Virus record (IMG/VR): IMGVR_UViG_3300034236_000061
Span: 1 to 47,568 of that record
Direction: 5' to 3' (one strand)
Origin: a virus
DNA length: 47,568 nt
In this document: positions 2,841-47,351 of the stretch, piece after piece
Layout: each line of letters opens with the position of its first letter
How positions within the stretch are numbered: position 1 is the stretch's first letter
The notes under the pieces: generated by a model
What the model saw: the letters and a program-made list of their open reading frames with translations, nothing else
What the model was told of the DNA's origin: nothing
Databases searched by the model: none
Program-made: the position numbers and the translations under genes

Positions 2841-3824
2841 TCAGGTGAACAAACGCCAGTTGCGGCGAATCCAGTCAATCGTTCCGACGACCTTTTCCGG
2901 CTGCGTTCCGGTCTGAAAATCTATCTCGACGTGGTGAACCGTCAGCAATTTATTGATAAACGAGGAACCGGCGCGCAGAAAGGTTTTTCCGCCGTCGAGC
3001 GAAAACCAAGTCGTCCACGAATCCGAAGCGCGCTGCAGGTGCAGCACGATTTCCGTGACGTTCGCCGAGACGATTTCGCTGACGGCGAAAAAAGACCAGC
3101 TTCCGGAGTCCTGATTGTCGACGCCGATAATCGGATTGTTGTTGTTCTGCCAGAAAGCTCGGACGGCGTTCAGCTCGTCCGAGCTGTAGGCGCTGATGAT
3201 AAACCCGGCGTAGCTCGCCGCCGTGCGGCATTGAAAGCTGACTTTCGCCGTCAGCGAAAAATCGCCGACCGGCGCGTAATTAAACTCCAGATGCAGCGTT
3301 TTGCTCGCGCCCGGAAAATAAGCGTAAAGATGCGAAGGAATGGTCGTATTGACATCATAAGAGACGCCTGAGCCGGGCGTGATGGTATACAGCGCGTTGA
3401 CCGCTCCTGCATCGTCGAATTCTTCGTCCTGAACCGTCGGCGACGACGGCGGCACGTCCACGCCGTAAGCGGCTGAAGCGATGCCCGCCGTTTCCCCGTC
3501 GTCTACGTCGAGATTCAGCGTGACGGGGCTGGAGACGCCGCCCGAGACGAGATTCAAAACAATCTCGTCGCCTTTGACGAGCGCCACGTTCAAGCCGGTG
3601 GTCGTGCCGATTTTCGAGCCGATGTTAATCGTCACGCCCGCGCCCGAAATTTCGACGCCGTTTTTATATAAGGCAAAAACGGCATTCGCGCCCACAACGT
3701 TCTCGTCCGTTTTAACGTCCACCGCTTTGAGCGTGCCGTCCTTCATAATCGGCACATAGATAACGCCGCTCGTCGCGCCGGAAAGACTGCCGCCCGTATA
3801 AACTAAGGTGAGTTGATTAATCAT
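2841..3824 (-). CDS. Modular fibre or receptor-binding protein
   Basis: 327 residues. The first 114 align without gaps to the N-terminus of the protein at 13061-13849, about 70 percent identical by hand count (shared SGVIY, GTLKAVDV, GAGVT, GDEI, VDDGETAG). After GETAG the two are unrelated. Here the C-terminal ~200 residues resemble a beta-sandwich lectin or LamG-like fold (LHLEFNYAPVGDFSLTAKVS, WTTWFSLDGGKTF), plausible for carbohydrate binding. An anchoring N-domain with an exchangeable C-domain is typical of receptor-binding proteins. It lies between a small tail-fibre-like gene and the putative hub. The fold assignment is inference. Confidence 0.6.
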   Translation of the reverse strand: MINQLTLVYTGGSLSGATSGVIYVPIMKDGTLKAVDVKTDENVVGANAVFALYKNGVEISGAGVTINIGSKIGTTTGLNVALVKGDEIVLNLVSGGVSSPVTLNLDVDDGETAGIASAAYGVDVPPSSPTVQDEEFDDAGAVNALYTITPGSGVSYDVNTTIPSHLYAYFPGASKTLHLEFNYAPVGDFSLTAKVSFQCRTAASYAGFIISAYSSDELNAVRAFWQNNNNPIIGVDNQDSGSWSFFAVSEIVSANVTEIVLHLQRASDSWTTWFSLDGGKTFLRAGSSFINKLLTVHHVEIDFQTGTQPEKVVGTIDWIRRNWRLFT

Positions 3825-3830
3825 TGCTCT

Positions 3831-4232
3831 TTACTCAAGCGAGAAGCTGATGTCGCCGATGTCGAAATAAAGATTCTGCTCGTCGTCGATTTGGAGCGCG
3901 TCGTCGAGGTTTTGATAAAAATAGAGATTTCCGCCACTCGAAGCGTCGAATAAGCCGACGGCGAGAACCGGGTCCCAATCTTCCTCCGCCGGGTCGAAAT
4001 CGAAACGCACGGCGTTTTCTTTCGCGCCCGCGCTCGCTGCCGGAAAGTTCGTCAGGTTATTCGTCACCTGAAGCGGCGTATAACCCAGATTGTCCAGTTC
4101 CGTGCCCACCGCGTCGCGGTCGAGCGTCGTCGTGAAAAGCCGAATAAAAAGATTCGTCGCCGGCGTGAAATTCGTCCCGGAAACGGCTTTGTCGAGCAGC
4201 TTGTTGCGGAGGAAATTGCTGATATTTAACAT
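3831..4232 (-). CDS. Small tail-fibre-like structural protein
   Basis: 133 residues. It resembles a widespread group of about 130-residue phage tail fibre accessory proteins: an N-terminal LFIRLFTTTLDRDAVGTELD block, then GYTPLQVTNN, a WDPVLAVGLFDA strand pair and a C-terminal DIGDISFSLE strand. It sits 6 bases before the fibre protein at 2841-3824 and probably helps attach or assemble it. The family link is by recall of the motif order. Confidence 0.55.
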   Translation of the reverse strand: MLNISNFLRNKLLDKAVSGTNFTPATNLFIRLFTTTLDRDAVGTELDNLGYTPLQVTNNLTNFPAASAGAKENAVRFDFDPAEEDWDPVLAVGLFDASSGGNLYFYQNLDDALQIDDEQNLYFDIGDISFSLE

Positions 4233-4513: not shown

Positions 4514-4924
4514 TTAAGCGGTCATAAAGCGCAGCGTGATGCCCTTGATCCGGTCGTTGATAAACGAGTCAAAAGCGAAAGGCTGCGGCAGAACCGGCTC
4601 TGCCGAAACGGTAAAGTCTCCGGCGTCTCCGGCGGCTGCAATTTCAATTGTGTCGGAATTTTCCAAAGCGGTGATGATGAGCGATTTCACGTCTTCCCAG
4701 ACGTCCGCCGTCAGGACGTTGATTTTGATTTCAAACGGGATTCCTTTGTCGGATTCGAGTATTTGCGTGACGGGCGTGCCGTCGGCTGCCGGAATGGTTA
4801 CGCCCGTGAATGGAAGCATTAAAGCGGCGGCGTTCGTTACTTGCAGTTTGCAGGCGTCGCCCATCGCCGTGCCGTCCGAGGTGAGATAAATCGAATCGAG
4901 TTGAATTCCGTAAAATCGCGACAT
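4514..4924 (-). CDS. Tail structural protein of unknown type
   Basis: 136 residues, soluble, acidic and beta-rich (FYGIQLDSIYLTSDG, DAGDFTVSAEPVLPQPF, ITLRFMTA). It sits between the frameshifting chaperone and the fibre genes, where distal tail or tube-extension proteins often lie. I do not recognise the family. Confidence 0.55.
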   Translation of the reverse strand: MSRFYGIQLDSIYLTSDGTAMGDACKLQVTNAAALMLPFTGVTIPAADGTPVTQILESDKGIPFEIKINVLTADVWEDVKSLIITALENSDTIEIAAAGDAGDFTVSAEPVLPQPFAFDSFINDRIKGITLRFMTA

Positions 4925-4930
4925 AGTAAT

Positions 4931-5149
4931 TTATTCCTGGCTCGTCAAATGAAACTCGCCGCAAAAATTCACGCACGGGTAAACAAAGAACGGCTTATCG
5001 TAAACAGACGAAAAATAATCCGCATACCACAAAGCACAAAGCTCCGACGGATACGAGCGTTTGCGCGAGCACGAGCGTTGGCGTCGATATTCATCATTGG
5101 TTTTCGGGCTTCTTTTTGTTGAATCTTTCGATTCTCTCGATTCTGGCAC
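4931..5149 (-). CDS. Possible small tail-operon protein, start uncertain
   Basis: 72 residues from a GTG. The C-terminal half (YPSELCALWYADYFSSVYDK...) has a protein-like composition rich in aromatic residues. The first third overlaps the end of the frameshifted chaperone, so the true start may lie further in. A competing frame begins at an ATGATGA overlapping the chaperone extension stop at 5094-5096 and encodes a basic 41-42 residue peptide. I cannot decide between them. Confidence 0.3.
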   Translation of the reverse strand: MPESRESKDSTKRSPKTNDEYRRQRSCSRKRSYPSELCALWYADYFSSVYDKPFFVYPCVNFCGEFHLTSQE

Positions 5150-5848
5150 GTTCGCTTTTGAGGATTTTGACCAGCCGGTCCGTCGTGATTGTCCAGTCGC
5201 GTGAATCGGTCGATTCGATTTCCGAAACGTCGATGACGGTCTGCTTCAGACTTTCCAGCGAGTATTTGTTCCAATTGCCCGCGAGACGCGTCCGGAGATT
5301 TTCTTTTAAGTTTTCCTCAAAAGTTTCTCTTTCGGCTTTGACCGGGCAGTTGCGGCAGGATTTGGCTTCGCCGAAAGCGCAAACCGAAGGGCATTCGTCG
5401 TATTCGGGCGGCAGCGTCGATTCGGCAATCGAGTTATAGAGAAACGCGCTGCAGGTTTCTCTAAAAGCTATAAAAAACTTTCTTCGGGCTGGAGACGGAC
5501 AAGATATGCGTTGACGGCGAAATAAGCCGTGCGCTCTTTAGTGACGCTTTGCTCTTCAAAAAAAGCTCTGACTGCTTCCGCCGGCGTCGAAAAATTCTCG
5601 ATGTAAGTCGGCTGAGTTCCTGGACCTAATTCTTTAGGTTTGTTTGGAAACATCCCGTCCGGCATTTGAACCGATAAATCAGCGAGCATATCGACGTTTA
5701 ATTGATATTGCTTTTCCGCTTTTTCCGCTTCGGTGAGTCCAAACATTTTTTGCCGAAGCTGTGACTCTTCGGCAATGCCAATCATCCGTAAAAAGAATGT
5801 AATCGTGTTTCCGTAGGTAACTGAAACTTTAATCGTTTCTGAGGTCAT
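5094..5848 (-). CDS. Tail assembly chaperone, long form made by -1 frameshift
   Basis: The short chaperone frame stops at 5468-5470. The -1 frame, with no start codon of its own, continues openly to 5094, giving about 251 residues in total. The extension has a Cys-rich stretch (CPSVCAFGEAKSCRNCPV) and a helical charged C-terminus (IDVSEIESTDSRDWTITTDRLVKILKSERARIER), as expected for a tape-measure-binding T domain. A gene-length frame lacking a start and joined through a perfect slippery site matches the G/GT pair of lambda-like siphophages. The frameshift signal is listed separately. Confidence 0.75.
5438..5477 (-). promoter_or_regulatory. Programmed -1 ribosomal frameshift site
   Basis: In the zero frame the message reads AGT TTT TTA TAG, containing the heptamer U UUU UUA at 5471-5477 directly before the stop. 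After an 8-base spacer (UAGCUUUU) comes a perfect 8-bp stem, AGAGAAAC (5462-5455) with GUUUCUCU (5445-5438), and a 9-base loop. Slippery heptamer, spacer of this length and stem-loop are the standard parts of a -1 frameshift cassette. Confidence 0.8.
5468..5848 (-). CDS. Tail assembly chaperone, short form
   Basis: 126 residues, helical. It lies just after the tail tube gene, the standard position of the lambda G-type chaperone. The C-terminus ends RLQPEESFL at the slippery sequence. AAAAGGAG about 13 bases ahead of the ATG is a good ribosome site. It should coat the tape measure protein during tail assembly. Unusually, the tape measure gene is not next downstream but at 10743-12965. Confidence 0.7.
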   Translation of the reverse strand: MTSETIKVSVTYGNTITFFLRMIGIAEESQLRQKMFGLTEAEKAEKQYQLNVDMLADLSVQMPDGMFPNKPKELGPGTQPTYIENFSTPAEAVRAFFEEQSVTKERTAYFAVNAYLVRLQPEESFL

Positions 5849-10286: not shown

Positions 10287-10364
10287 CTAGCTTTTGTTAC
10301 CGGTCAAGACAGCCCAGGCGTAAGGTCTGATGAGCTTTCCGCCGTAAACGTGAAGTCCGATTGA
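10287..10364 (-). pseudogene. Displaced 3' end of a major coat protein gene
   Basis: In one frame this stretch encodes GLHVYGGKLIRPYAWA followed by VLTGNKS and TAG, identical in all 23 residues to the end of the intact coat protein at 16902. About 16 of the 23 codons differ, all synonymously (for example GGA CTT CAC GTT TAC against GGC TTG CAC GTG TAT). Similarity stops abruptly upstream and there is no start. It is the remnant of a second, diverged coat gene. Confidence 0.85.
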
Positions 10365-10742: not shown

Positions 10743-12965
10743 TTAAAAATTCGGTTCATAGTATTCTTGTGTGTGTCGCGGCGTCGGCGTTTTGACCGAG
10801 CGAGACCGCACGTCCGCTTTGCCGTTCGATTCGTCGATAATTCGGATGACGCCCTGCAATCCTTCTTTTTCCGCTATTTCTTTTAATTTATCCAAGCTTT
10901 CGGCGATTCGGTTTTGCAGTGCAATTTGTTTTTTACGGTCTGCGGTTGCGTCCTGCTCGTATCGCTCGATGCGGACGGCATCGCGTTCTCTGGCTGCCGC
11001 AAACTTTTCGCGCAAATCGTAAGTTAACTGGCTAGGATTTAAACCCGACGAAAGAGCGATTAATTTTTTATCATTAATCGCCTGTTCGTTTTCGCTCAAA
11101 AACCCTTTGCCCTGTATCAGTGAAATTTGTCTCTGCAAGCGGTCTTGAAGCCGCAGGTCGGAATCATCTTGTTTTTGCAGGCTTTGGATATAACTTTGCT
11201 TTTCAAAATCGGATAAATCGCCGAATGTGCGCTGGCGAACCGAAAAGCCGCCAAAGCCGCCGTCTTTATTTGAAACGCGGTCGTAAGCGTTCAGTAAATC
11301 GTTGCGCGCGTCGGATTGAGAAAAACCGTTGGTAAATAATTTATCCGAGCCGTCCGCGTTTTTGCCGTTGGCGAATATATTTGAATGGTAACGGGTGAAC
11401 GGGTCGTTTTCCGATTGTGAAAACCCCAGAAAGCCTTTGCCGTCCGGCGTGAAAGAAGCGTTAAAGTTTTTGCCGCCGCGCCCTTTTTCGATTTGCTTGA
11501 GTCCGGCTTGAATGAAATCATCAAAGAACTTAGTCGGGTCTTCGATTTTAAACTCCGGCTTTTGATAATTTCTTAAATCCTTTGCCTGTTCGCGCAAGTC
11601 GAAAACGCCTAAATTATTATCAATTCGCGCCTCGTACAATTTCAGCGCGTTTTGATTTTTTTGCATCGTTTCAAAAGTAGAAATCAAATCCGCAGACAAG
11701 CCTTTCGTATTTTCCCGCAAAGTTTTTAAGGCTTTATCGCCGTCACTGAAAATTGAAACAAGCGGATTATTCGCGCCTTGTTTTTGATAAAGATTATCTA
11801 AAACGTCAGTGTAAGTTTTACCGAGTTCTCTGACTTTCGCTTTGCCTTTTTCGATTGATTCATTCTGTTGCTTTAGCCGTCTCTGCTCTGCTTCCCTTGC
11901 ATCGTCTTGTGATTTGGCGTAGCTTTTCCAGCGATTATCAAAAGCTTCGTTCGATGCGCGAATTTTATTCTGCTGAGACGAATCAATTTGAGCGTCAAGG
12001 GTAAGAAGCTGTCGGGAAAGTTTCTCGAAATCTTCGTTCGGTTTGGAAATCACTTTACCGTTTTCTATGACCGGCAGAGTAGCGGGCGTCAGGTTTTTAA
12101 GCTGTTCCAGATTGGCGCGACGGCGCGTAAGGGCTTCAATCGAGCCAGCATCCAAAAACCGTTCAAACGTGCGTAGTTCGGCGGCTTCCTCGCGCATTTT
12201 TTGCAGATTTTTTAATCCTTCTTTCTGCGATAAGATTTGATTATTGATTGCGCCTTGAATTTGAAATTCAACCTGTAAACGGCGTTCGGCTTCATTGCGA
12301 ATGTTTTCCGTCACTTTGACGATTCCGTATCCGGCGACGGCAACCGCGCCGAAAATGCCGAGCGAAGTCATCGAGAGAGCGTTGACGGCAAGCATCCCTC
12401 TACTAACGGCATTATAAGCGCGGTTTAAACCTTCCGGCGCGAAATCGTCGGTTAATTCCAAAGTGGTCGCTTGAAAGTCCGTAATACGCCCGCGCTTTCC
12501 GCTTTTGCCGGAAATACCTTTTGCGGTTGATGAATTAGCCGAAGGCAGTGCGCTTAGTTTTCTGTTTAAATTATCGGCTTCTTTTTCGGCGGCGCGGAGT
12601 TCGTCGGTCAAAAAAGCGATTGACGATTTTCGATTCGGGTTAAGTAACTCTTTTCTGATATTGGAAATATCATTTTGAAGCTGTCGCGCCCGTTCGGAAG
12701 TCCTGACTATCTCTCTCGTTAAGCCGCCGACATTTCCAGCGTCGAGGCGAGTAGCGGTAATCTGTTGAAACTGCTTCCGCGTTTCGGCAGCTTTTTTTTC
12801 GAGCCTGTCCAAATCAATAAAATTCTCGTTCGGGATTTTGAATTTTATGTTCGGCTGTATTTTTTCGGCATCGCGGGCAAAGTCCTGCAAACGCTGTTTA
12901 TTTTTGCCGATAACAACTTCGGCTTTATCATCTAAAAAAACCAATTCGACGGTAAGAACATCCAT
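10743..12965 (-). CDS. Tape-measure-like tail protein
   Basis: 740 residues from the ATG encoding MDVLTVELVFLDDKAEVVIG. The frame opens 15 codons earlier, but that ATG lies inside a terminator loop. Long charged coiled coil (about 25-150), then a glycine/alanine hydrophobic stretch (about 190-215, LGIFGAVAVAGYGIV), then further coiled coil (NQILSQKEGLKNLQKMREEAAELRTFERFL) to the end. This pattern and size suit a short tape measure that sets tail length and contacts the membrane at injection. It lies just after the coat gene instead of after the frameshifting chaperone; no other candidate exists in the window. Confidence 0.65.
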   Translation of the reverse strand: MDVLTVELVFLDDKAEVVIGKNKQRLQDFARDAEKIQPNIKFKIPNENFIDLDRLEKKAAETRKQFQQITATRLDAGNVGGLTREIVRTSERARQLQNDISNIRKELLNPNRKSSIAFLTDELRAAEKEADNLNRKLSALPSANSSTAKGISGKSGKRGRITDFQATTLELTDDFAPEGLNRAYNAVSRGMLAVNALSMTSLGIFGAVAVAGYGIVKVTENIRNEAERRLQVEFQIQGAINNQILSQKEGLKNLQKMREEAAELRTFERFLDAGSIEALTRRRANLEQLKNLTPATLPVIENGKVISKPNEDFEKLSRQLLTLDAQIDSSQQNKIRASNEAFDNRWKSYAKSQDDAREAEQRRLKQQNESIEKGKAKVRELGKTYTDVLDNLYQKQGANNPLVSIFSDGDKALKTLRENTKGLSADLISTFETMQKNQNALKLYEARIDNNLGVFDLREQAKDLRNYQKPEFKIEDPTKFFDDFIQAGLKQIEKGRGGKNFNASFTPDGKGFLGFSQSENDPFTRYHSNIFANGKNADGSDKLFTNGFSQSDARNDLLNAYDRVSNKDGGFGGFSVRQRTFGDLSDFEKQSYIQSLQKQDDSDLRLQDRLQRQISLIQGKGFLSENEQAINDKKLIALSSGLNPSQLTYDLREKFAAARERDAVRIERYEQDATADRKKQIALQNRIAESLDKLKEIAEKEGLQGVIRIIDESNGKADVRSRSVKTPTPRHTQEYYEPNF

Positions 12966-12997
12966 AATAATTGAGGTTAAAAGGTGAGAAAATAAAG

Positions 12998-13024
12998 AAA
13001 GGTTTGGCATTTCACCAAACCTTT
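12998..13024 (-). terminator. Terminator ahead of the tape measure gene
   Basis: Perfect 10-bp stem AAAGGTTTGG / CCAAACCTTT with a 7-base loop, followed by CTTTATTTT in the minus direction. It separates the fibre-like gene from the tape measure gene. Confidence 0.7.
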
Positions 13025-13060
13025 AAAGTTTACAGTTTTAAACGAAAGCGGTAACTAAAG

Positions 13061-13849
13061 CTAAATTTCGATGTATTCCAGATACGAGCCAGCCAGAATA
13101 TTCGTCTGGTCGGCGCTGGAAGTGCCTTGCGCGAACTGAAAAGCGAACGTGCCGCCACCCGCGCCGCAACGAACCGTTATTTTATATTCAATAAATCCGA
13201 GCGGGCTGGCGCTTAAACTTTGATTCGTCGGCAAGGTGGAAAAATCGGCAATCGTCGTCGCGCTGGACGGCGCGAAGTTCGCCGCGCCGGTTCTCTGCTC
13301 GCCGCAGACTAAAGTAACGGCTGGCGCGGCGAGTCCGAATTTTATATTCGGCGTTGCGCTCGCCGTGTAGATGAACGCTAAAAGACGAATGACGTAAGTT
13401 TTATTAGCCGCTATCGGAAAATGCAATTCAGCGTCATTTGATAAAACCGTGTTGCTTACTCGCTGTTCGTCAGCCGTTTTCTTAACGGTCGTCCACGCGC
13501 CCGCGCCGCCAGCCGTTTCGCCGTCGTCAACTGAAAGATTGAGCGTAATAGGGCTGGAAATACTGCCGCTGACGAGATTCAAAAGAATTTCGTCGCCTTT
13601 GGTAAGTTCAACGTCCAAGCCAGTGATTGAGCCTATGCGCGAACCGGCATTAACCGTCACGCCCGCGCCCGCGATTTCCACGCCGTTTAAATGCAAATTA
13701 AAAATCGCGTTCGCGCCCGAAACGCTTTCATCGGTCATTACGTCAACCGCTTTGAGAGTTCCGTTTTTTAAGATTGGTAAGTAAATAACGCCGCTTTTCG
13801 CGCCGCTAAGATTTCTGCCTTCGTAAAGTTTGGTAAGTTCGTTAATCAT
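13061..13849 (-). CDS. Fibre-like protein sharing its N-domain with the distal fibre
   Basis: 262 residues. Residues 1-114 match those of 2841-3824 at about 70 percent with no gaps. The C-terminal ~145 residues are unrelated: an Ala/Thr-rich beta domain (NKTYVIRLLAFIYTASATPNIKFGL; YKITVRCGAGGGTFAFQFAQGTSS). The shared N-domain probably anchors both proteins to the particle. Strong hairpins flank the gene on both sides, so it may be a separately expressed cassette. Confidence 0.6.
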   Translation of the reverse strand: MINELTKLYEGRNLSGAKSGVIYLPILKNGTLKAVDVMTDESVSGANAIFNLHLNGVEIAGAGVTVNAGSRIGSITGLDVELTKGDEILLNLVSGSISSPITLNLSVDDGETAGGAGAWTTVKKTADEQRVSNTVLSNDAELHFPIAANKTYVIRLLAFIYTASATPNIKFGLAAPAVTLVCGEQRTGAANFAPSSATTIADFSTLPTNQSLSASPLGFIEYKITVRCGAGGGTFAFQFAQGTSSADQTNILAGSYLEYIEI

Positions 13850-13851
13850 AA

Positions 13852-13887
13852 CTAAAAAGACTTGGTGAAAATTCCAAGTCTTTTTAG
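13852..13887. terminator. Bidirectional terminator upstream of the fibre-like gene
   Basis: 14-bp perfect stem CTAAAAAGACTTGG / CCAAGTCTTTTTAG with an 8-base loop and T-rich arms on both strands. Confidence 0.75.
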
Positions 13888-13913
13888 TGTATAGATTTAT
13901 TTGGTAGCGGTGA

Positions 13914-14156
13914 TTACTTCAATTCTTCTACGCCTAAAAAGCGTTTAAATTCGTAGTCTTCCTGTGCCTGCCTGCGCTTTTTTTCAGAATTTCTTCGCCC
14001 TTCTTGGTCAGATAAAATTTGCTGATTACCGGCGGCGGTAATCGTTTCTTCATCTTTTAAATGTTTTTCCTCTTTTTTACGAATATTATTCGTAACAATT
14101 CCCGTTATAAAAAACGCGCATAGGGCAATCGGCAGAATTATTTTTAGAGATTTCAT
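13914..14156 (-). CDS. Membrane-anchored peptide resembling the tape measure protein
   Basis: 80 residues. Residues 5-24 (KIILPIALCAFFITGIVTNN) form one membrane span or uncleaved signal. The rest aligns with tape measure residues ~213-280: GIVTNNIRKKEEKHL against GIVKVTENIRNEAERRL, then NQQILSDQEG against NNQILSQKEG, and FKRFLGVEEL against FERFLDAGSIEAL. Both copies therefore carry a hydrophobic span followed by the same charged helix. It is either a fragment of a duplicated tape measure or a standalone mimic. It has its own ATG, stop and downstream terminator. Confidence 0.65.
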   Translation of the reverse strand: MKSLKIILPIALCAFFITGIVTNNIRKKEEKHLKDEETITAAGNQQILSDQEGRRNSEKKRRQAQEDYEFKRFLGVEELK

Positions 14157-14252
14157 TTTGATTCGGTTTTCCTTTTCGGTAGGTTGAGAATAGCCGAATT
14201 AATGATAGCAAAGGGTGGGAATGTTTTTCAACAAGTTTTAAACAGTGTGGAT

Positions 14253-14927
14253 TTATTGAACGCTTGCCCTGCGCTTTCCGTTTTTTATCCTTGAAACCAA
14301 ACTTTCACGAACATTAAAATCGGTCGCTATTTTTCTTCCTGTTTCGCCGTTTTGCAATCGCCGTTTAATTTCCCTCACTTGGTTGTCGGTTAATTTGGCT
14401 TGGTGATTTTTTTCGCCAGTTTGGGCTAATGCCTTATTTTTACGATGTTCTTCGGATTGTTTTCTGCCTTTTAGCTTTTCCCCGTTTTCCGACATTCTAG
14501 CCGAAAACTCAGGCGTTACTTTTCTGTTTTTCCAGATATTGGCGCGATGTTCTGCGGATTTTTTCCTGCCTTTCAATCCAGCCGAAACTTTAGCTTTTTG
14601 TTCGTCGGAAAAACGATAACCCAAAATGCTTTTCGCGGTCGGGCTTAAATTGTAGCCGATATTTTTTTGAAAGCAGTTTGTCTTATCGAGCCAGAACTGC
14701 TCGCGCTCAATTAATAAATCAATATCGGAAACGTATTCTAAAATCTGAAAGCCAAAAGCCGCCGCGCCGTATTTATTCCACGCGGCTTGCAGAAACTTAT
14801 TATTGTGAATTTGTTTGTTTAACTGCCTTTTATGTTCGGTAAAACGGCGCGTTAAATAGACCGCCGAGCCGATGTATAACTTGCCGCTTTTAGTATTTAA
14901 AATTTGATATATTCCAGACTTTTCCAT
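14253..14927 (-). CDS. GIY-YIG homing endonuclease with NUMOD3 and HTH
   Basis: 224 residues. The catalytic domain opens with GIY at 5-7 and YIG at 18-20, with Arg27/28 and the EH pair at 31-32. Two NUMOD3-type DNA-binding repeats follow (GYRFSDEQKAKVSAGLKGRK and a later GRKQSEEHRKNKA). A C-terminal helix-turn-helix (LTDNQVREIKRRLQNGETGR, NVRESLVSRIKNGKR) completes the usual free-standing homing endonuclease layout. Such enzymes cut one specific site and spread their own DNA by repair. Base composition here is more AT-rich than in the tail genes. Confidence 0.9.
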   Translation of the reverse strand: MEKSGIYQILNTKSGKLYIGSAVYLTRRFTEHKRQLNKQIHNNKFLQAAWNKYGAAAFGFQILEYVSDIDLLIEREQFWLDKTNCFQKNIGYNLSPTAKSILGYRFSDEQKAKVSAGLKGRKKSAEHRANIWKNRKVTPEFSARMSENGEKLKGRKQSEEHRKNKALAQTGEKNHQAKLTDNQVREIKRRLQNGETGRKIATDFNVRESLVSRIKNGKRRASVQ

Positions 14928-14999
14928 TTTACCGCCTATTAAATATAAACGACTAAAACAAGAGTTTTTCCAATGTTGTCAACGGTTTAACACTTATTT

Positions 15000-15191
15000 T
15001 CAGTATCTATTTTCTACTGTTTTTAACGCTTGTTTGAACTCGGAAAAATTAACTTTTCCGTCGCGCACCCGAACGAAAAGCCGCGCCAGTTCCAAAGATT
15101 CGACGTTTGCCGATTTTGCGCGCCTTTCCGTAATCCATTTTTTGCGGCAATCGGCGCAAGTATAATTTTTATGACATTTCGGACAACTCAT
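15000..15191 (-). CDS. Small zinc-ribbon protein
   Basis: 63 residues with MSCPKCHKNYTCADCRKKW (two CxxC pairs, residues 3-15), then a helical tail SLELARLFVRVRDGKVNFSEFKQALK. The tail resembles the C-terminus of the next gene upstream (AELAKVFMQVREKEIGFFHFKQKVA), so the two may have arisen by duplication. The genes overlap by 4 bases. Function unknown. Confidence 0.6.
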   Translation of the reverse strand: MSCPKCHKNYTCADCRKKWITERRAKSANVESLELARLFVRVRDGKVNFSEFKQALKTVENRY

Positions 15192-15499
15192 TTTTTTATC
15201 GCTACCTTTTGTTTGAAGTGAAAAAAACCGATTTCCTTTTCTCGCACCTGCATAAAAACCTTTGCTAGTTCCGCGTCTTTCGGGCTGTAGCCGATTAAGG
15301 AATTTTCCGCTTGCGTTTCAAGCCGGATTTCTTCTAAAATCTGTTCGGCGCGTTCTTTGGTCTGAGGCTCGCACAATCGCCAGATTTGATGTTGTTTACC
15401 TTTGACCGTCACGGATTTTCGAACGTATAGCTTTTGCTTATGCGCGTCGAAAACCGTGTAAGGAAACGCGCCTTTCGTGTAATTCGTCTTTTTCTTCAT
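15188..15499 (-). CDS. Small basic protein resembling an arm-type DNA-binding domain
   Basis: 103 residues. The N-terminal half (FPYTVFDAHKQKLYVRKSVTVKGK, then ERAEQILEEIRLE) follows the three-strand plus helix pattern of AP2-like integrase arm-binding domains, here without a catalytic part. The C-terminal half shares a helix with the neighbouring zinc-ribbon protein. DNA binding is a guess from pattern. Confidence 0.55.
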   Translation of the reverse strand: MKKKTNYTKGAFPYTVFDAHKQKLYVRKSVTVKGKQHQIWRLCEPQTKERAEQILEEIRLETQAENSLIGYSPKDAELAKVFMQVREKEIGFFHFKQKVAIKK

Positions 15500-15580
15500 A
15501 AATTTAAGTGAGGCGTTTCCGTCTTAATTTTTCGTCAGACCTACCGCGCCTCTTTTTTCGCCTTTTGCCAGTGCGAAAAC

Positions 15581-15745
15581 TTAACCCTGATTTTCTTCCG
15601 ATTCCGCCAGAATCGCGTCTAAAAAGCGGTTGGTTATTTCCAGTAAATAGTCGAATTTAATTTTCTTTTCGGGCGAAAGATTCTCGTAATTATCTAAAAG
15701 AATCCTGAATTTCCGGCGGAGTTTTTCCAGTTTTTCTTCATCCAT
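15581..15745 (-). CDS. 54-residue helical protein
   Basis: ATGGATGA overlap with the upstream gene's stop couples the two. The product is two charged helices (EEKLEKLRRKFRILLDNYENL; KIKFDYLLEITNRFLDAILAESEE). No family recognised. Confidence 0.55.
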   Translation of the reverse strand: MDEEKLEKLRRKFRILLDNYENLSPEKKIKFDYLLEITNRFLDAILAESEENQG

Positions 15746-16901: not shown

Positions 16902-17750
16902 CTACGATTTGTTGCCTGTCAGGACTGCCCAAGCATACGGACGGATTAATTTACCCCCATACACGTGCAAGCCTTTTATAGCGTCCGCGAAACGAGCTTC
17001 AGGGCGATAAGCTTCGATTTTGACGATTTGCTCCGCGAAGGTATAAGCCATCGGGTGACCCGCGATGATTTTGTATTTCGTCGCGGAGGTGTGCGGCGTG
17101 TTGTTGGAAACGTAAATATCCATTCCCGCAGCGCGTCCGATTTTGCCGTTACGAATTACATTGTCCGACGTGCTGGTTCCCGCCGCGACGAAACGGTCGT
17201 CTTTGAGCAGCAAGCCTTCGCACCACGCCGGGATGATGGCAAAACGCCCTTCCTCCGGCACATTGGCTTCAGTTAATTTGACTTTCAAATCAACCAGGTA
17301 ATCATAAAGATTGTCTTTCGTCAGCACGATGGGCGTCGTGTCGTCGCCGATCAGATTCGACACCGGCACGAGAACGTGATTCGCGGCGATGAAAATATCG
17401 GACTTGTCGCGCAGACCGTAGCCGGCGCGGTTCATTGCTTCCGCCATCACGTTGGCGTTCGCCTGGACTTTATCAACGTCGTCAACGGCAAAATTGAAAT
17501 ATTTGCCTTCGGTGATGTTGAGCATCTGCCCGGCGTCGTCTAATTCGTCCGGTCCGTCGATGTTACTGTTTTTGGTGTAATCCTTAATAGTGATGTCGCC
17601 GACCGAATTGATTTTGACCGAATCGCCTTTGTCGCGGATTTCGCCTTCGTACTCGCGGTTGCAAACGGCAGGGCTGCCGAAGATGTGGAATTTTTCGAGC
17701 GCTTTCAAGATTTTGACGCTCCAAACGGTAGGAATGAAATTGTTAATCAT
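16902..17750 (-). CDS. Major coat protein, P22 gp5-like HK97 fold
   Basis: 282 residues. MINNFIPTVWSVKILKALEK, then GDSVKINSVGDITIKDYTKN, AMNRAGYGLRDKSD and PMAYTFAEQIVKIEAYRPE are typical of the P22-type coat group. It follows the scaffold gene, and a terminator ends it. Its last 23 residues are duplicated with other codons at 10287-10364. The 3' end here uses AT-richer codons (GGT AAA TTA) than the displaced copy. Confidence 0.85.
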   Translation of the reverse strand: MINNFIPTVWSVKILKALEKFHIFGSPAVCNREYEGEIRDKGDSVKINSVGDITIKDYTKNSNIDGPDELDDAGQMLNITEGKYFNFAVDDVDKVQANANVMAEAMNRAGYGLRDKSDIFIAANHVLVPVSNLIGDDTTPIVLTKDNLYDYLVDLKVKLTEANVPEEGRFAIIPAWCEGLLLKDDRFVAAGTSTSDNVIRNGKIGRAAGMDIYVSNNTPHTSATKYKIIAGHPMAYTFAEQIVKIEAYRPEARFADAIKGLHVYGGKLIRPYAWAVLTGNKS

Positions 17751-19222: not shown

Positions 19223-20527
19223 TTATACCGCGCCGAACTCGCACAAATATTTCAAGTTGATTTGTGACGTGTCGTAAACGATTGCCTCGTGATTCATCAC
19301 GCCGCATGTTCCGGCTTCCACCCAGGTCGAATCGAAGCCTTTGCGCGGAAAGCTTCCCGTCCGGTTTTTCGGTTCGTTCATTTTGCCGAGCGCGCATTCG
19401 GTCAAAAACATAAACGTCCGCTGATTTCTCGCGCCCGAGCCGTTCCAAAAATCCGTCGCGTAATTTAACGCTTTCGTCGATTGAACGCTCGTATAAATTC
19501 CGTCGCCGAACATTCTGCCCGTGCAGTGAGAAGCGCTGGATTTCGGAATCATCAAACCGCTTTTCAAAATGCTCAAAAGATTCGAGGCTTTCGTGCCGTG
19601 CCATAAATCGGCGCGGACGTTGCCGATTTTCGCCGCCGCCAAATCGAAATTCTGTTTCATATCTTCGATTTCGACTTCGTAAACGCGAACCAGTTTCAAA
19701 CTCGATGTGTTATGAAAACCGTTTTTCGACGATTCATACTGTTTTTTGATGCGGCGGAAAACGGCGCGTCCCTCGTCGGTCGTGTGCGGAACGATGGACA
19801 ATTTACACTTGAAGATTTTATCGCTTTTCAAGTCCGGCGAGCTGGTCGTTAAAGCCGCGTCGAGCGCGTCGAGAATCGAGCCTTGCGCGGAGATTTTATC
19901 CGCCGTGTCTAAAAGCTGGCTGCTGGGCGGAATGCGAGCGCCGAAGTCCGCCGGTACGAGGCGAAAATAATCACAAATCAATTTATGGCGCGCGCCGCTC
20001 GTTAAACCGTTTGAATTTTCGCTTTCGATGCTCGTCAGCAGCTGGCGGGCTTTGGCGACGGCTTCGGGCGTCAAGACGCCGAGCGGCGTCGAAAACGCGC
20101 CGGTTGCCGCGTTGTACTTGATGCTCGTCGAATGCGTGATTTGATGAATATTGACCTCAGCCAAATATTTGATTAAATCGGCGGTCGTCGCGCATAATGC
20201 GCCGTCGCCGAGAATTTGCTCGACGGCGAGGCGCGATAATTCCTGCGGTCGGTTGTTCGTGATAACGATTTCAGTTTCCGCGCCGCCCAGCACGGAAGTA
20301 TCTTCATAACCTTTTCTGAGCTTTTCGCCGCGTTTGCTTTCGAGATAAGCAACTGCCGCCGCCGATGAGGAAAGCTGTTTTTTACTGACGGCGAGGTTTG
20401 CGCCTTCCCGGACGCGTCCGTATTGAGCCTCGAATAATCCGTTATCGTGCGCCGAGCCGATCCAGACTTTATTTGAATTTTCGCCCGCGTCGAAGTAATT
20501 CATTTTGTATTGCTTGATAACTGTCAT
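19223..20527 (-). CDS. WGR-domain poly(ADP-ribose) polymerase (PARP) encoded by the phage
   Basis: 434 residues from the ATG with AAAGGAA upstream. A longer frame only reflects overlap with the previous gene. WGR domain at ~5-85 (W22; G37-R38 in YGRVREG). Helical regulatory-type region ~95-270, with DLIKYLAEVN and TPLGVLTPEAVAKARQLL resembling the PARP1-3 regulatory domain. ADP-ribosyltransferase domain ~275-434 with the full H-Y-E triad: H310 (LWHGTK), Y345 (FGDGIYTS), E414 (NHEAIVYD), then SQINLKYL. It should split NAD+ and add ADP-ribose, possibly chains, perhaps stimulated by DNA ends through WGR. Target unknown; no macrodomain or glycohydrolase is nearby. The setting inside the head operon suggests late expression. 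Confidence 0.93.
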   Translation of the reverse strand: MTVIKQYKMNYFDAGENSNKVWIGSAHDNGLFEAQYGRVREGANLAVSKKQLSSSAAAVAYLESKRGEKLRKGYEDTSVLGGAETEIVITNNRPQELSRLAVEQILGDGALCATTADLIKYLAEVNIHQITHSTSIKYNAATGAFSTPLGVLTPEAVAKARQLLTSIESENSNGLTSGARHKLICDYFRLVPADFGARIPPSSQLLDTADKISAQGSILDALDAALTTSSPDLKSDKIFKCKLSIVPHTTDEGRAVFRRIKKQYESSKNGFHNTSSLKLVRVYEVEIEDMKQNFDLAAAKIGNVRADLWHGTKASNLLSILKSGLMIPKSSASHCTGRMFGDGIYTSVQSTKALNYATDFWNGSGARNQRTFMFLTECALGKMNEPKNRTGSFPRKGFDSTWVEAGTCGVMNHEAIVYDTSQINLKYLCEFGAV

Positions 20528-20559
20528 ATCGAAAAATATTCCTTTCTTAAAAAAGTTAA

Positions 20560-20579
20560 GGGCGCTTCTTAAAGCGCCC
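20560..20579 (-). terminator. Hairpin ahead of the PARP gene
   Basis: GGGCGCTT / AAGCGCCC stem with a 4-base loop, followed on the minus strand by TTAACTTTTTT. It would limit read-through from the upstream Cys protein into the PARP gene. Confidence 0.65.
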
Positions 20580-20606
20580 CTGTCAGCCTGTCTATTAGTG
20601 TCCGTC

Positions 20607-20849
20607 TTAGTTGAATGCTTCGCGGTCGTGGCATTCCCTGTGACAGTTTCCGGTCTCGGAAGGCTCGCCGCACAATTCGCAAATAACTTCCAAGTAACCG
20701 GTGTGGTCAATTTTAAAATCTGAAAACCAGTCGATTTCGGTTTCGTCCGCGTCTTCAAAGTAAGCCGCCATTTGCGCTTCGGCTTCGGCGTCCGCGTCCT
20801 GCAGCATTTCGCAAATTTCTTCGTGATAATAGGATTTCGTTAAGCTCAT
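20607..20849 (-). CDS. Small acidic Cys-motif protein of the PARP cluster
   Basis: 80 residues from the ATG behind GGAG. Acidic helical N-terminus (EEICEMLQDADAEAEAQMAAYF) and a C-terminal CELCGEPSETGNCHREC motif (C-x2-C-x8-C-x3-C), suited to one zinc ion. It lies between the SWIM and PARP genes and is likely a partner. Not recognised. Confidence 0.6.
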   Translation of the reverse strand: MSLTKSYYHEEICEMLQDADAEAEAQMAAYFEDADETEIDWFSDFKIDHTGYLEVICELCGEPSETGNCHRECHDREAFN

Positions 20850-20888: not shown

Positions 20889-21410
20889 TTACGCGTTCAC
20901 CACAACCTGAATCGTGCCGAAGCACGTTTCCTGCAAAGCTTCGGCGATATGTTTGCAGATGTGTTTGCGAAAGGTGAAATCCTTGCAATCGCATCTCGCA
21001 TTAACTTTACCTTCGGAAGTTTCCAGCCTGACGCGGTATTCCGTGCCTTTGGTGCGATTGACGACATCAAACAAGTCGCGCGCGCCGCCCGGATAAACTT
21101 CAATATTGTCTTCCAGACCGCGCCGCAGAGCTTGTTTAAATTCGGCTTTCCGTGAGCTGAGGCAAATCAAGCCAGCCGGTTCGTTGCGCGGCTGGAGCTG
21201 GACGTGATAAGCGACGAGCGCCGATTGACGGATTGCCGAGCGGCTCACTTCGCCGTCAGGATAAGCGCAATAATAAGCCGGCTCGCCGTCGCGGGTCGTC
21301 AGCTCAACGACCGTCAAATAAATCACTTTGTCGTTGTCGTCGATGTCCTGAGCCTGAATGGTGAAGCCGATTTTGTCGCCGATGTTTAAGAAGATGTTTG
21401 CGTTTGTCAT
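20889..21410 (-). CDS. SWIM zinc-finger protein
   Basis: 173 residues from the ATG behind GGAG. A beta-rich N-terminal half (IGDKIGFTIQAQDIDDNDKV; CAYPDGEVSRSAIRQSALVA) precedes a C-terminal SWIM motif, CDCKDFTFRKHICKHI (CxC-x9-CxH, residues ~143-157). SWIM fingers bind DNA or protein. In a three-gene minus-strand unit with the PARP gene. Divergent HTH gene and promoter upstream. Confidence 0.85.
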   Translation of the reverse strand: MTNANIFLNIGDKIGFTIQAQDIDDNDKVIYLTVVELTTRDGEPAYYCAYPDGEVSRSAIRQSALVAYHVQLQPRNEPAGLICLSSRKAEFKQALRRGLEDNIEVYPGGARDLFDVVNRTKGTEYRVRLETSEGKVNARCDCKDFTFRKHICKHIAEALQETCFGTIQVVVNA

Positions 21411-21439
21411 TTTGTGGTTACTCCGTTTTATTAGTGCGA

Positions 21440-21489
21440 TTGACTTATTCAATCTTTAATAAGTCTAACATCATTGCTATACTAAGTCA
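21440..21489. promoter_or_regulatory. Divergent promoter and operator of the PARP cluster
   Basis: Minus strand: TTGACT (21489-21484), 17-base spacer, TAGACT/TATTAA near 21467-21460. GACTTATT at 21442-21449 and AATAAGTC at 21458-21465 form a perfect inverted repeat over the -10 region, a plausible site for the HTH protein encoded divergently. On the + strand TATACT at 21479 could serve as a -10. Confidence 0.5.
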
Positions 21490-36244: not shown

Positions 36245-37059
36245 AAAAAGTCGTTTTCCGTGAGCGGCTCGTGTTTGCATTTGCGCGAGCCGAGTTCGTT
36301 CCCGGCTTCGTCGTAAACGGTTTCCCACCCGCCGCCGCTGCCGTGACAGCGCGGACAGTTCTGTTTTCTTTCCTCGTCGGCTTCGCGCGCCTGCTTTTCT
36401 ATTTCGGGATTCAGCGCCGCCTCGATAAAAGGGTCGTATTCGCCGGATTTGAAAATGCTCGTCGCCAAGCCGTGCCGGTTCCTGATGTCCTCGCCTTTCT
36501 CGATGCAGACATCGACGTAAGCCAGGCATTCGGTGATTGTGAATCGGGATTTATGCCCGTTGGTTTCCGGGGAATTTTTAAATGACACACTCACACCGGC
36601 AGCGCCGTTTTGCTGTGTTGTGTGCTCTGGCAATTCGCTGTTCTGAAAAGTCTCTGTATATAAGGAAGGGGAAACTGTAGACTTTACAGTTTTGGGGTCG
36701 TTTTCACTGTAAACTTTACAGTCGAAAACTGTAGACTTTACAGTTTTGTCTGTAGACTTTACAGTTTTTTCGATGCCGACGAGCGGTCGAATGCCGCCGT
36801 TTCTGCCTTTAATTACTTCGACCCACTTCAATTTTCTGAGCAGTTTGTAGCGGCGCATCGAGTTGTCGTAATCGAGGTCGTACAGCTCGCAGAGTTCCCG
36901 GATTGATTTGCGGCAGATGAGCGAATCGCCCCAGGTCCAGAGAAGAATGAGACAGTAAAGAAGAAACGCTTCCGGCTGCCAGCGTTTTTCGTCCTCTTCT
37001 TTTAACTCCTTGCGCCGCTTAAAGGCGTCTTCGCCGACACGGGCGTGCATCTTTGGCAT
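36202..37059 (-). CDS. Phage replication initiator-like protein with internal DNA repeats
   Basis: 285 residues. Residues ~25-95 form a winged helix (FLLYCLILLWTWGDSLICRK; IRELCELYDLDYDNSMRRYK; LRKLKWVEVIKG), as in lambda O- and DnaD-like initiators. Residues ~98-130 contain repeated KTVKST, the translation of palindromic DNA repeats. The C-terminal part has a CPRCHGSGGGWE...CKHE zinc motif. No helicase domain is present, so it probably loads host DnaB. Repeats inside the initiator gene after the wHTH mimic the lambda O gene, which contains the origin. Confidence 0.7.
   Translation of the reverse strand: MPKMHARVGEDAFKRRKELKEEDEKRWQPEAFLLYCLILLWTWGDSLICRKSIRELCELYDLDYDNSMRRYKLLRKLKWVEVIKGRNGGIRPLVGIEKTVKSTDKTVKSTVFDCKVYSENDPKTVKSTVSPSLYTETFQNSELPEHTTQQNGAAGVSVSFKNSPETNGHKSRFTITECLAYVDVCIEKGEDIRNRHGLATSIFKSGEYDPFIEAALNPEIEKQAREADEERKQNCPRCHGSGGGWETVYDEAGNELGSRKCKHEPLTENDFLWKWQQKQEQPTID
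36674..36765. repeat. Four phased palindromic iterons, candidate replication origin
   Basis: ACTGTAGACTTTACAGT at 36674-36690 and 36728-36744, ACTGTAAACTTTACAGT at 36706-36722, and TCTGTAGACTTTACAGT at 36749-36765. Starts are 32, 22 and 21 bases apart, close to whole helical turns, so all face one side of the helix. Half-sites ACTGTA/TACAGT are constant; only the spacer varies. Confidence 0.7.
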
Positions 37060-46286: not shown

Positions 46287-47351
46287 ATGGCTTATATTAC
46301 ACCACAGCATAGTAAAAAAGCAGTTAGCAGGGCTGGAAACGTATTAGTTCACGCAGAGCCGGATTCCATCGAATATAGTCAGGCAATTGAAGTTGTTAAT
46401 AACTGGCGTTTTTCACATATCTATCCGATGCAGACGATAAAAAAGACGCTGACCGATAGAGCTAAAAGAGTTGAAAAAACTGCCATTACAGCACAGAGAT
46501 TAAAGCGTCTCTCATCAATCGAAAGCAAGCTCAGGTTGCTTGGCAACAGCCAACTTGGGTCAATGCAGGATATAGGTGGCTGCCGAGCGATTATGAAAAG
46601 CATTGACTTAGTCAATGCGCTAGTCGATGTTTACGAAACCGCAAACGCAAAGAATCCGTTGGGCAGACCTCAGTTGATAGATAGAGACGATTATATTGAG
46701 ACTCCTAAAGCAACAGGTTATAGAGGGATTCATTTAATTTACAGATACCAAAGTTTTACGCCCAACTGTCAAGAGTGGAACGGGCTGAAAATTGAAATCC
46801 AAATACGGTCGAGGCTTCAGCATTACTGGGCGACCGCAGTTGAAACGGCTTCGGCGTTTTTAGGTGAACAACTCAAATCAGGCATCGGAAATCCCGATTG
46901 GCGTAGGTTTTTTGCATTGGCAAGTAATGTTTATTCAGTAATGGAAGAATGTGAGCTTGTTCCCGGCACTGTGGAAGGAACAAGACAAGAATTTATTGAT
47001 GAACTAAACCATTACTGGAATGAGCTACAAGTTGAAACTTTTTTAGGTGGTTGCGTAGTAGTCGTTGACCGCACACAGAAAGGTTTTAAGGACTTCAAGA
47101 GATTTTTAGTAACATTTAATGCAAAAGAAAGGTCAGTCAGCGCCAAAGGTTTTGCATCTAATCAACTGGTAGAAGCGACCACTGAATTAGCAGAACGGGA
47201 AAAAGAGTATGAAGATAAGCCCGAAATACAAGTGGTGCTTGTTGAGGTTGACAGTTTAGGTAAATTAAGAGAGTCTTATCCAAACTTTTACGCCGATACA
47301 AGCGTGTTTATTCAAAGCATCAATGATATTATCGAAAAATATGGAAAGTAA
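46287..47351 (+). CDS. RelA/SpoT-domain nucleotide pyrophosphokinase, possible toxSAS toxin
   Basis: 354 residues. Residues ~60-215 form the RelA/SpoT synthetase fold: RLKRLSSIESKLRLLG (ATP-binding basic loop), MQDIGGCRAIMKS, YIETPKATGYRGIHLIYRY (substrate Tyr in the conserved G-Y position) and LKIEIQIRSRLQHYWATAVE. No HD hydrolase domain. The C-terminal ~140 residues are a helical extension. Single-domain synthetases lacking a hydrolase and followed by a tiny overlapping gene are the form of toxSAS toxin-antitoxin systems. They may make alarmones or modify tRNA CCA ends. Confidence 0.8.
   Translation: MAYITPQHSKKAVSRAGNVLVHAEPDSIEYSQAIEVVNNWRFSHIYPMQTIKKTLTDRAKRVEKTAITAQRLKRLSSIESKLRLLGNSQLGSMQDIGGCRAIMKSIDLVNALVDVYETANAKNPLGRPQLIDRDDYIETPKATGYRGIHLIYRYQSFTPNCQEWNGLKIEIQIRSRLQHYWATAVETASAFLGEQLKSGIGNPDWRRFFALASNVYSVMEECELVPGTVEGTRQEFIDELNHYWNELQVETFLGGCVVVVDRTQKGFKDFKRFLVTFNAKERSVSAKGFASNQLVEATTELAEREKEYEDKPEIQVVLVEVDSLGKLRESYPNFYADTSVFIQSINDIIEKYGK

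Follow-up and report, generated by a model that had tools for sequence, protein, structure and literature searches.

The stretch of DNA analysed here (hereafter, the window) is a 47.6-kb virus record of IMG/VR. An 80-aa ORF lies at 13914–14156 on the minus strand (ATG start, TAA stop; hereafter, the small ORF) and encodes the protein MKSLKIILPIALCAFFITGIVTNNIRKKEEKHLKDEETITAAGNQQILSDQEGRRNSEKKRRQAQEDYEFKRFLGVEELK. Its N-terminal membrane span, at about residues 4–22, was predicted from hydrophobicity and helix, and is followed by one long helix that is homologous to the segment just past the hydrophobic region of the tape measure protein (TMP) of the same record. AlphaFold, run with a two-sequence alignment, predicted a single continuous helix over residues 4–74 (mean pLDDT 79.9). 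The first-pass annotation had described one membrane span and a following helix, and both predictions agree with this. K2 and K5 precede the hydrophobic stretch; positive charges flank the span on both sides, so that its topology is ambiguous. Searches of the small ORF against Pfam and PHROGs gave no family. Inspection of the sequence found no good lipobox (I-A-L-C), and a lipoprotein identity was therefore rejected.

The upstream 110 nt of the small ORF were scanned for promoters and compared with those of the window genes. A predicted sigma-70-like promoter (TTGAAA-N18-TATCAT with a TG extension; 14202–14231, minus strand) matches the consensus at 10 of 12 positions, and has the best score found upstream of any of the 44 window genes examined. 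Accessory genes have the second and third best scores (10 and 9.5), and structural genes score 8 or less. A match to the sigma-70 consensus is not a proof of transcription. Just past the stop codon of the small ORF is a terminator-like hairpin (13851–13888, minus strand; 15-bp stem, U-rich 3′ arm, −21 kcal/mol, z −7.2), which directly abuts the start of the next gene. A Shine-Dalgarno-like AGGA is located 13 nt from the start codon, which is far and was counted against a functional reading. Thus, as judged from consensus matching and predicted folding, an accessory gene among structural genes is framed by its own promoter and terminator. In the close relatives L003 and L014 the same site lacks it, the capsid gene being followed directly by the decoration gene. 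As predicted from the sequence, the arrangement is that of a moron gene.

The accessory island and its surroundings

The small ORF is part of an accessory island of ∼6.5 kb, which also carries a GIY-YIG/NUMOD homing endonuclease gene (14253–14927, minus strand). The adjacency of the capsid and decoration genes in L003 and L014 indicates that the island entered at the capsid gene's 3′ end. At the far edge of the island (10287–10358, minus strand), the last 23 codons and the stop codon of the major capsid gene recur as a displaced copy. It is identical to the present capsid 3′ end (16902–16973) in all amino acids, but in only 50 of 72 nucleotides, and matches L003 at 93% over 58 nt. It seems that the island with the homing endonuclease brought a recoded capsid 3′ end, which is possibly resistant to the island's own endonuclease. 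A chimeric contig was also considered and set aside; exact repeats of assembly length are lacking at the recoded capsid end, and insertion or recombination explains the arrangement equally well.

Next to the small ORF is a gene for a 262-aa protein (13061–13849, minus strand). Over its first ∼109 aa, this protein shares 72% identity with the N-terminus encoded by the tail gene at 2841–3824. The C-termini of the two differ. The start of the 262-aa gene abuts the terminator-like hairpin, and it has no evident ribosome-binding site.

An XRE-type, repressor-like gene followed by a gene for an M78/ImmA-like (ImmA/IrrE-type) protease is also present, and this pair fits a temperate lifestyle. Other genes of the window include one for a 511-aa WGR/PARP_reg/PARP protein of the poly(ADP-ribose) polymerase type in the head-gene region (19223–20758). 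It adjoins a gene for a SWIM zinc-finger protein with a strong promoter match of its own (20889–21452). A gene for a RelA/SpoT-domain protein (46287–47351; phrog_4773, of unknown function, E=2.6e-90) lies at the window end.

Identity and position of the tape measure gene

The ORF at 10743–13010 (minus strand) is 755 aa long. Comparison with homologues suggests Met16 (12965) as the likely true start, which would give a protein of 740 aa. Pfam and PHROGs provided no name for it. Capsid-based searches led to similar prophages in genomes of Pyrinomonadaceae/Acidobacteriota, and a search of those genomes with the 755-aa protein gave clear homologues (best E=3.9e-117). In G001, the homologue is followed by homologues of the window genes at 4514–4924 and 3831–4232 and, further on, of that at 783–2837. 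In both G050 and G047 it comes after the tail tube, with chaperone-position genes homologous to those at 5468–5848 and 4931–5149 also preceding it in G050. A place after the tail tube and chaperone-position genes is the standard slot of the TMP. This synteny of its homologues in the tail modules of Pyrinomonadaceae prophages supports the identification of the 755-aa protein as the TMP, which the first-pass annotation had guessed. TMPs of this prophage family are 650–760 aa long, compared to 80 aa for the small ORF.

In the window, the usual slot is empty, as the gene at 4931–5149 ends 6 nt before that at 4514–4924 starts. The TMP gene is located between the capsid and decoration genes instead. 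In the relative G004, a tail block containing the TMP gene lies upstream of the genes for scaffold and capsid.

Directly upstream of the TMP gene, at 13018–13038, is an operator-like or iteron-like palindrome with 2–3 mismatches to AAACTGTANNCTTTACAGTTT. The palindrome AAACTGTAGACTTTACAGTTT and its variants have 10 matches where 0 were expected (sites include 36672–36767, 30966, 24616 and 13018). Three are inside a replication-initiator-like gene and others lie upstream of the genes for portal and TMP; these palindromes would be either origin iterons or operators. There is none near the small ORF, so separate control of the TMP gene and the small ORF would be possible. The region immediately upstream of the G001 TMP gene contains an AbiTii gene, which indicates that accessory and defence genes do enter such regions. 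At the locus L183, from a relative prophage, an AbiTii-domain gene (14575–15642) occupies the region just upstream of the TMP gene, and an unassigned gene for a 281-aa protein (13697–14542) separates the two.

Homology, origin and distribution of the small ORF

The 755-aa protein was the only match of the small ORF within its own record (E=5.0e-11, 42% identity; blastp 7.9e-12). The local alignment pairs residues 1–74 of the small ORF with residues 214–286 of the 755-aa ORF, corresponding to 12153–12371 (minus strand) of the TMP gene. The full alignment had a BLOSUM62 score of 120, whereas shuffled sequences gave a mean of 36.6 (sd 5.3, maximum 63). The part after the membrane span scored 108 alone, against 38.2 (sd 5.1) for shuffles, and is ∼13 SD above them. 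The hydrophobic part alone was no better than its shuffles (22 versus 20.2) and is not significant by itself, so the sequence evidence is carried only by residues ∼21–74. Chance similarity was rejected for these residues. An alignment of the small ORF with the TMP segment past the hydrophobic region had been noticed in the first-pass annotation, and the E-value and the shuffle tests bear it out. When 150 loci were scanned for a small ORF resembling a part of a large protein of the same locus, only two hits were obtained. The window pair was by far the stronger of them, and the other, L045, was weak.

The coil after the hydrophobic stretch is similar in all the TMPs found except that of G002 (for example, window, VTENIRNEAERRLQVEFQIQGAINNQILSQKEG...FERFL; G004, ITGQIRDLAEQRLRTEEKITAEFNKQILEQQ...FDR; G047, VTEHIRSEAEKRLKYEEQIAATMNKQVLASQE), and the small ORF keeps the TMP-conserved residues N-Q-IL, E-G and RFL. 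Over 54 columns, its identity is 46% to the window TMP, 46% to that of G047, 44% to G004, 41% to G001 and 37% to G050. Among these five TMPs, identity is 39–54%. By significant similarity over the aligned segment the small ORF belongs with the TMP family. It does not qualify as a TMP proper, being 80 aa long, outside the tail module and not of rod length.

The same comparison bears on the origin of the small ORF. Its distance from the window TMP is about that between TMPs of different prophages, and a recent copy of the window TMP was rejected on this ground, though silent sites and a tree weakly favour the window lineage. At third positions, 27 of 55 differ between the small ORF and the window TMP, where saturation would give 39.9, and the same codon is used for 16 of the 26 identical residues (10.6 expected). 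By silent sites, the small ORF is closest to the window TMP among the TMPs compared. A 55-codon nucleotide tree also pairs the two, with a bootstrap of only 58. It is a reasonable but weak reading of these sequence comparisons that the small ORF came from the TMP of its own lineage, and that the protein then changed fast.

A distance of this size is also what would be seen if the mosaic recombination that built the island had recently left behind a functionless fragment, from either a diverged TMP or an old duplicate, with a frame inherited from a full-length TMP. The other partial duplicates and the displaced capsid 3′ end in the island fit such a truncated remnant, as does the lack of conservation of the small ORF in relatives. 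On the other side, the TMP homology stops at both ends of the ORF, and nothing significant was found beyond them, in the flanks or out of frame. A predicted promoter and a hairpin frame the ORF. Far from being degraded, its membrane span is improved, the hydrophobic stretch scoring 2.24 compared to 1.56–1.86 in five TMPs. The silent sites and the tree, which weakly tie the ORF to the window TMP lineage, would also imply that it diverged as a separate gene.

The frame of the small ORF is intact, with a branch of ∼0.41 substitutions per site in the nucleotide tree. In neutral simulations assuming one indel per 15 substitutions, the probability of acquiring neither a stop nor a frameshift at 0.3–0.45 substitutions per site was ∼0.003 to 0.0003, a calculation that is invalid if the segment diverged inside the intact TMP of another phage before truncation. 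Because of this proviso, we consider a recent remnant unlikely, but still deserving serious weight as the main alternative. Given the promoter, the hairpin, the limits of homology, the stronger span and the intact frame, the small ORF seems to be more than plain debris. The decayed duplicate that the first-pass annotation had offered as its alternative is disfavoured, though it keeps some probability.

The ratio of divergence at first and second positions to that at third positions was 0.77 between the small ORF and the window TMP, and 0.47–0.61 between the window TMP and other TMPs; some TMP pairs reach 0.7–0.77, and position-specific divergence is too saturated to decide on selection. Such faster amino acid change relative to silent change would fit relaxed or changed constraint, as expected if a TMP segment had become a small membrane protein with another use, for example as an accessory of the phage's own injection, in an envelope effect or in the timing of lysis. 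The anatomy would be the same. However, the retention of N-Q-IL, E-G and RFL suggests that TMP-like contacts still matter, and we regard such another use as rather improbable.

No free-standing homologue of the small ORF was found in ∼500 Acidobacteriota genomes (119 genomes of the order and 396 drawn from the phylum, with some overlap), in IMG/VR scans or in 50,697 phage records. Searches of IMG/VR with back-translated patterns gave no relatives of the small ORF or the TMP, and IMG/VR held none of the N-terminus of the 262-aa gene. INPHARED phages had no relatives by tblastn or megablast. Weak hits, each in a single genome (G001:C9, C4, C12 and G003:C17), were rejected as chance ORFs or unrelated genes. 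The first-pass annotation had held that a lack of conservation in relatives that keep the TMP would speak against its proposal. Formally this is what we observed, as the small ORF is absent from every TMP-bearing prophage found. Such an absence is also expected of an accessory moron.

A candidate exclusion factor directed at DNA injection

As the most likely of the readings considered, we tentatively propose that the small ORF may encode a TMP-derived, membrane-anchored exclusion factor, which would be expressed in the lysogen and act on TMP-dependent DNA injection. The TMP homology, the conserved TMP segment, the best promoter, the hairpin, the stronger span, the intact frame, the single helix and the AbiTii precedent favour this reading. 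It is weakened by the lack of a free-standing homologue in any relative, and by the rearranged island with its partially duplicated 262-aa gene and displaced capsid end, partial duplicates being common debris here. A membrane-anchored TMP mimic giving superinfection exclusion had been suggested in the first-pass annotation. In its favour are the homology, a span better than those of the TMPs, the predicted promoter and terminator, the temperate-type regulators and a frame that is open against neutral expectation, whereas the absence from every TMP-bearing relative counts against it.

In the proposed scheme, the small ORF would be expressed in lysogenic cells from its predicted promoter. The product, a TMP-derived span with the adjacent coil, would likely sit in the host inner membrane, perhaps in an N-in/C-out topology. 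The putative target would be the injection step of phages that have this conserved segment in their own TMPs. The product might co-assemble with the coil of the incoming TMP in a dominant-negative manner, or might occupy the host membrane protein where this TMP segment docks.

TMPs contact the inner membrane during injection. The TMP is a target for exclusion and defence at injection (PMC10883804; PMC13190303; PMC3952083). During lambda injection, the phage protein that becomes labelled beside ManZ is the TMP, and an alteration inside its region 300–400 removes the requirement for ManYZ (PMC13190303). The superinfection exclusion moron gp15 of HK97 (Cumby et al. 2012) is prophage-borne and a predicted inner membrane protein that blocks DNA injection of long-tailed phages (PMC10883804, PMC6379469). 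Hybrids that received the tail tube and TMP genes of another phage escape exclusion by gp15 (PMC10883804). The likeness of the small ORF is in the predicted layout of a moron with a predicted membrane span, from which a similar function may be suggested by analogy. However, gp15 is related to bacterial YebO proteins rather than to phage TMPs, and of YebO proteins the small ORF had no Pfam or PHROG match, and the small ORF is itself a TMP segment.

The first-pass annotation had drawn its analogy with Ltp of TP-J34, a membrane-anchored surface lipoprotein that acts on the incoming TMP. The likeness would be in a membrane anchor and an action on the TMP, but the parallel is loose, and gp15 is closer. 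Ltp has TMP-binding repeat domains and is not described as TMP-derived, and the small ORF has no good lipobox, no such repeats and no family match. SNIPE, a membrane nuclease, likewise resides in the membrane and associates with the TMP while the genome is injected, but it carries DUF4041 and GIY-YIG nuclease domains in one protein, and the small ORF has neither. The GIY-YIG protein of the island (14253–14927) resembles homing endonucleases. The TMPs of the Pyrinomonadaceae prophages share the membrane-proximal coil (residues ∼21–74 of the small ORF); the small ORF differs in having its own start, stop and predicted separate transcription unit.

Tab of the Pseudomonas phage JBD26 is also a prophage protein directed at the TMP of competitors. 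Tab interferes with tail assembly once the DNA has entered, and is paired with an anti-Tab; it is not known to carry a membrane anchor. A peptide mimicking the TMP coil could poison the tail assembly of competitors, a step with which Tab and the Tai proteins also interfere. Prophages express TMP-targeting assembly blockers (PMC10884400), and interference with tail assembly is a wider strategy (PMC11364771). However, a membrane anchor is unexpected in a cytoplasmic assembly poison, and the phage's own assembly would be threatened unless counteracted, with no partner gene identified next to the small ORF. We consider interference with assembly very unlikely.

The exclusion mechanism proposed for the small ORF is plausible by analogy with these systems. 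The theme of TMP-directed exclusion is known from HK97 gp15 and Ltp, while the device, self-mimicry of the TMP, is apparently undescribed. Our literature search found no TMP mimics, decoys or fragments in exclusion, and nothing on a phage's own TMP segment serving this purpose. It is conceivable, though we think it doubtful, that prophages more generally derive exclusion factors from their own TMP, by releasing its inner-membrane-engaging segment as a separate, membrane-anchored protein that would jam injection by related phages. The idea bears on the way in which the TMP gets through the inner membrane and on the means by which a prophage stops that step. If true, the idea would pinpoint the exact TMP segment for channel formation or docking, and could be tested with segments of well-studied phages, e.g. 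lambda and HK97. In addition, it would point to a simple way in which exclusion genes are born, from the phage's own structural genes.
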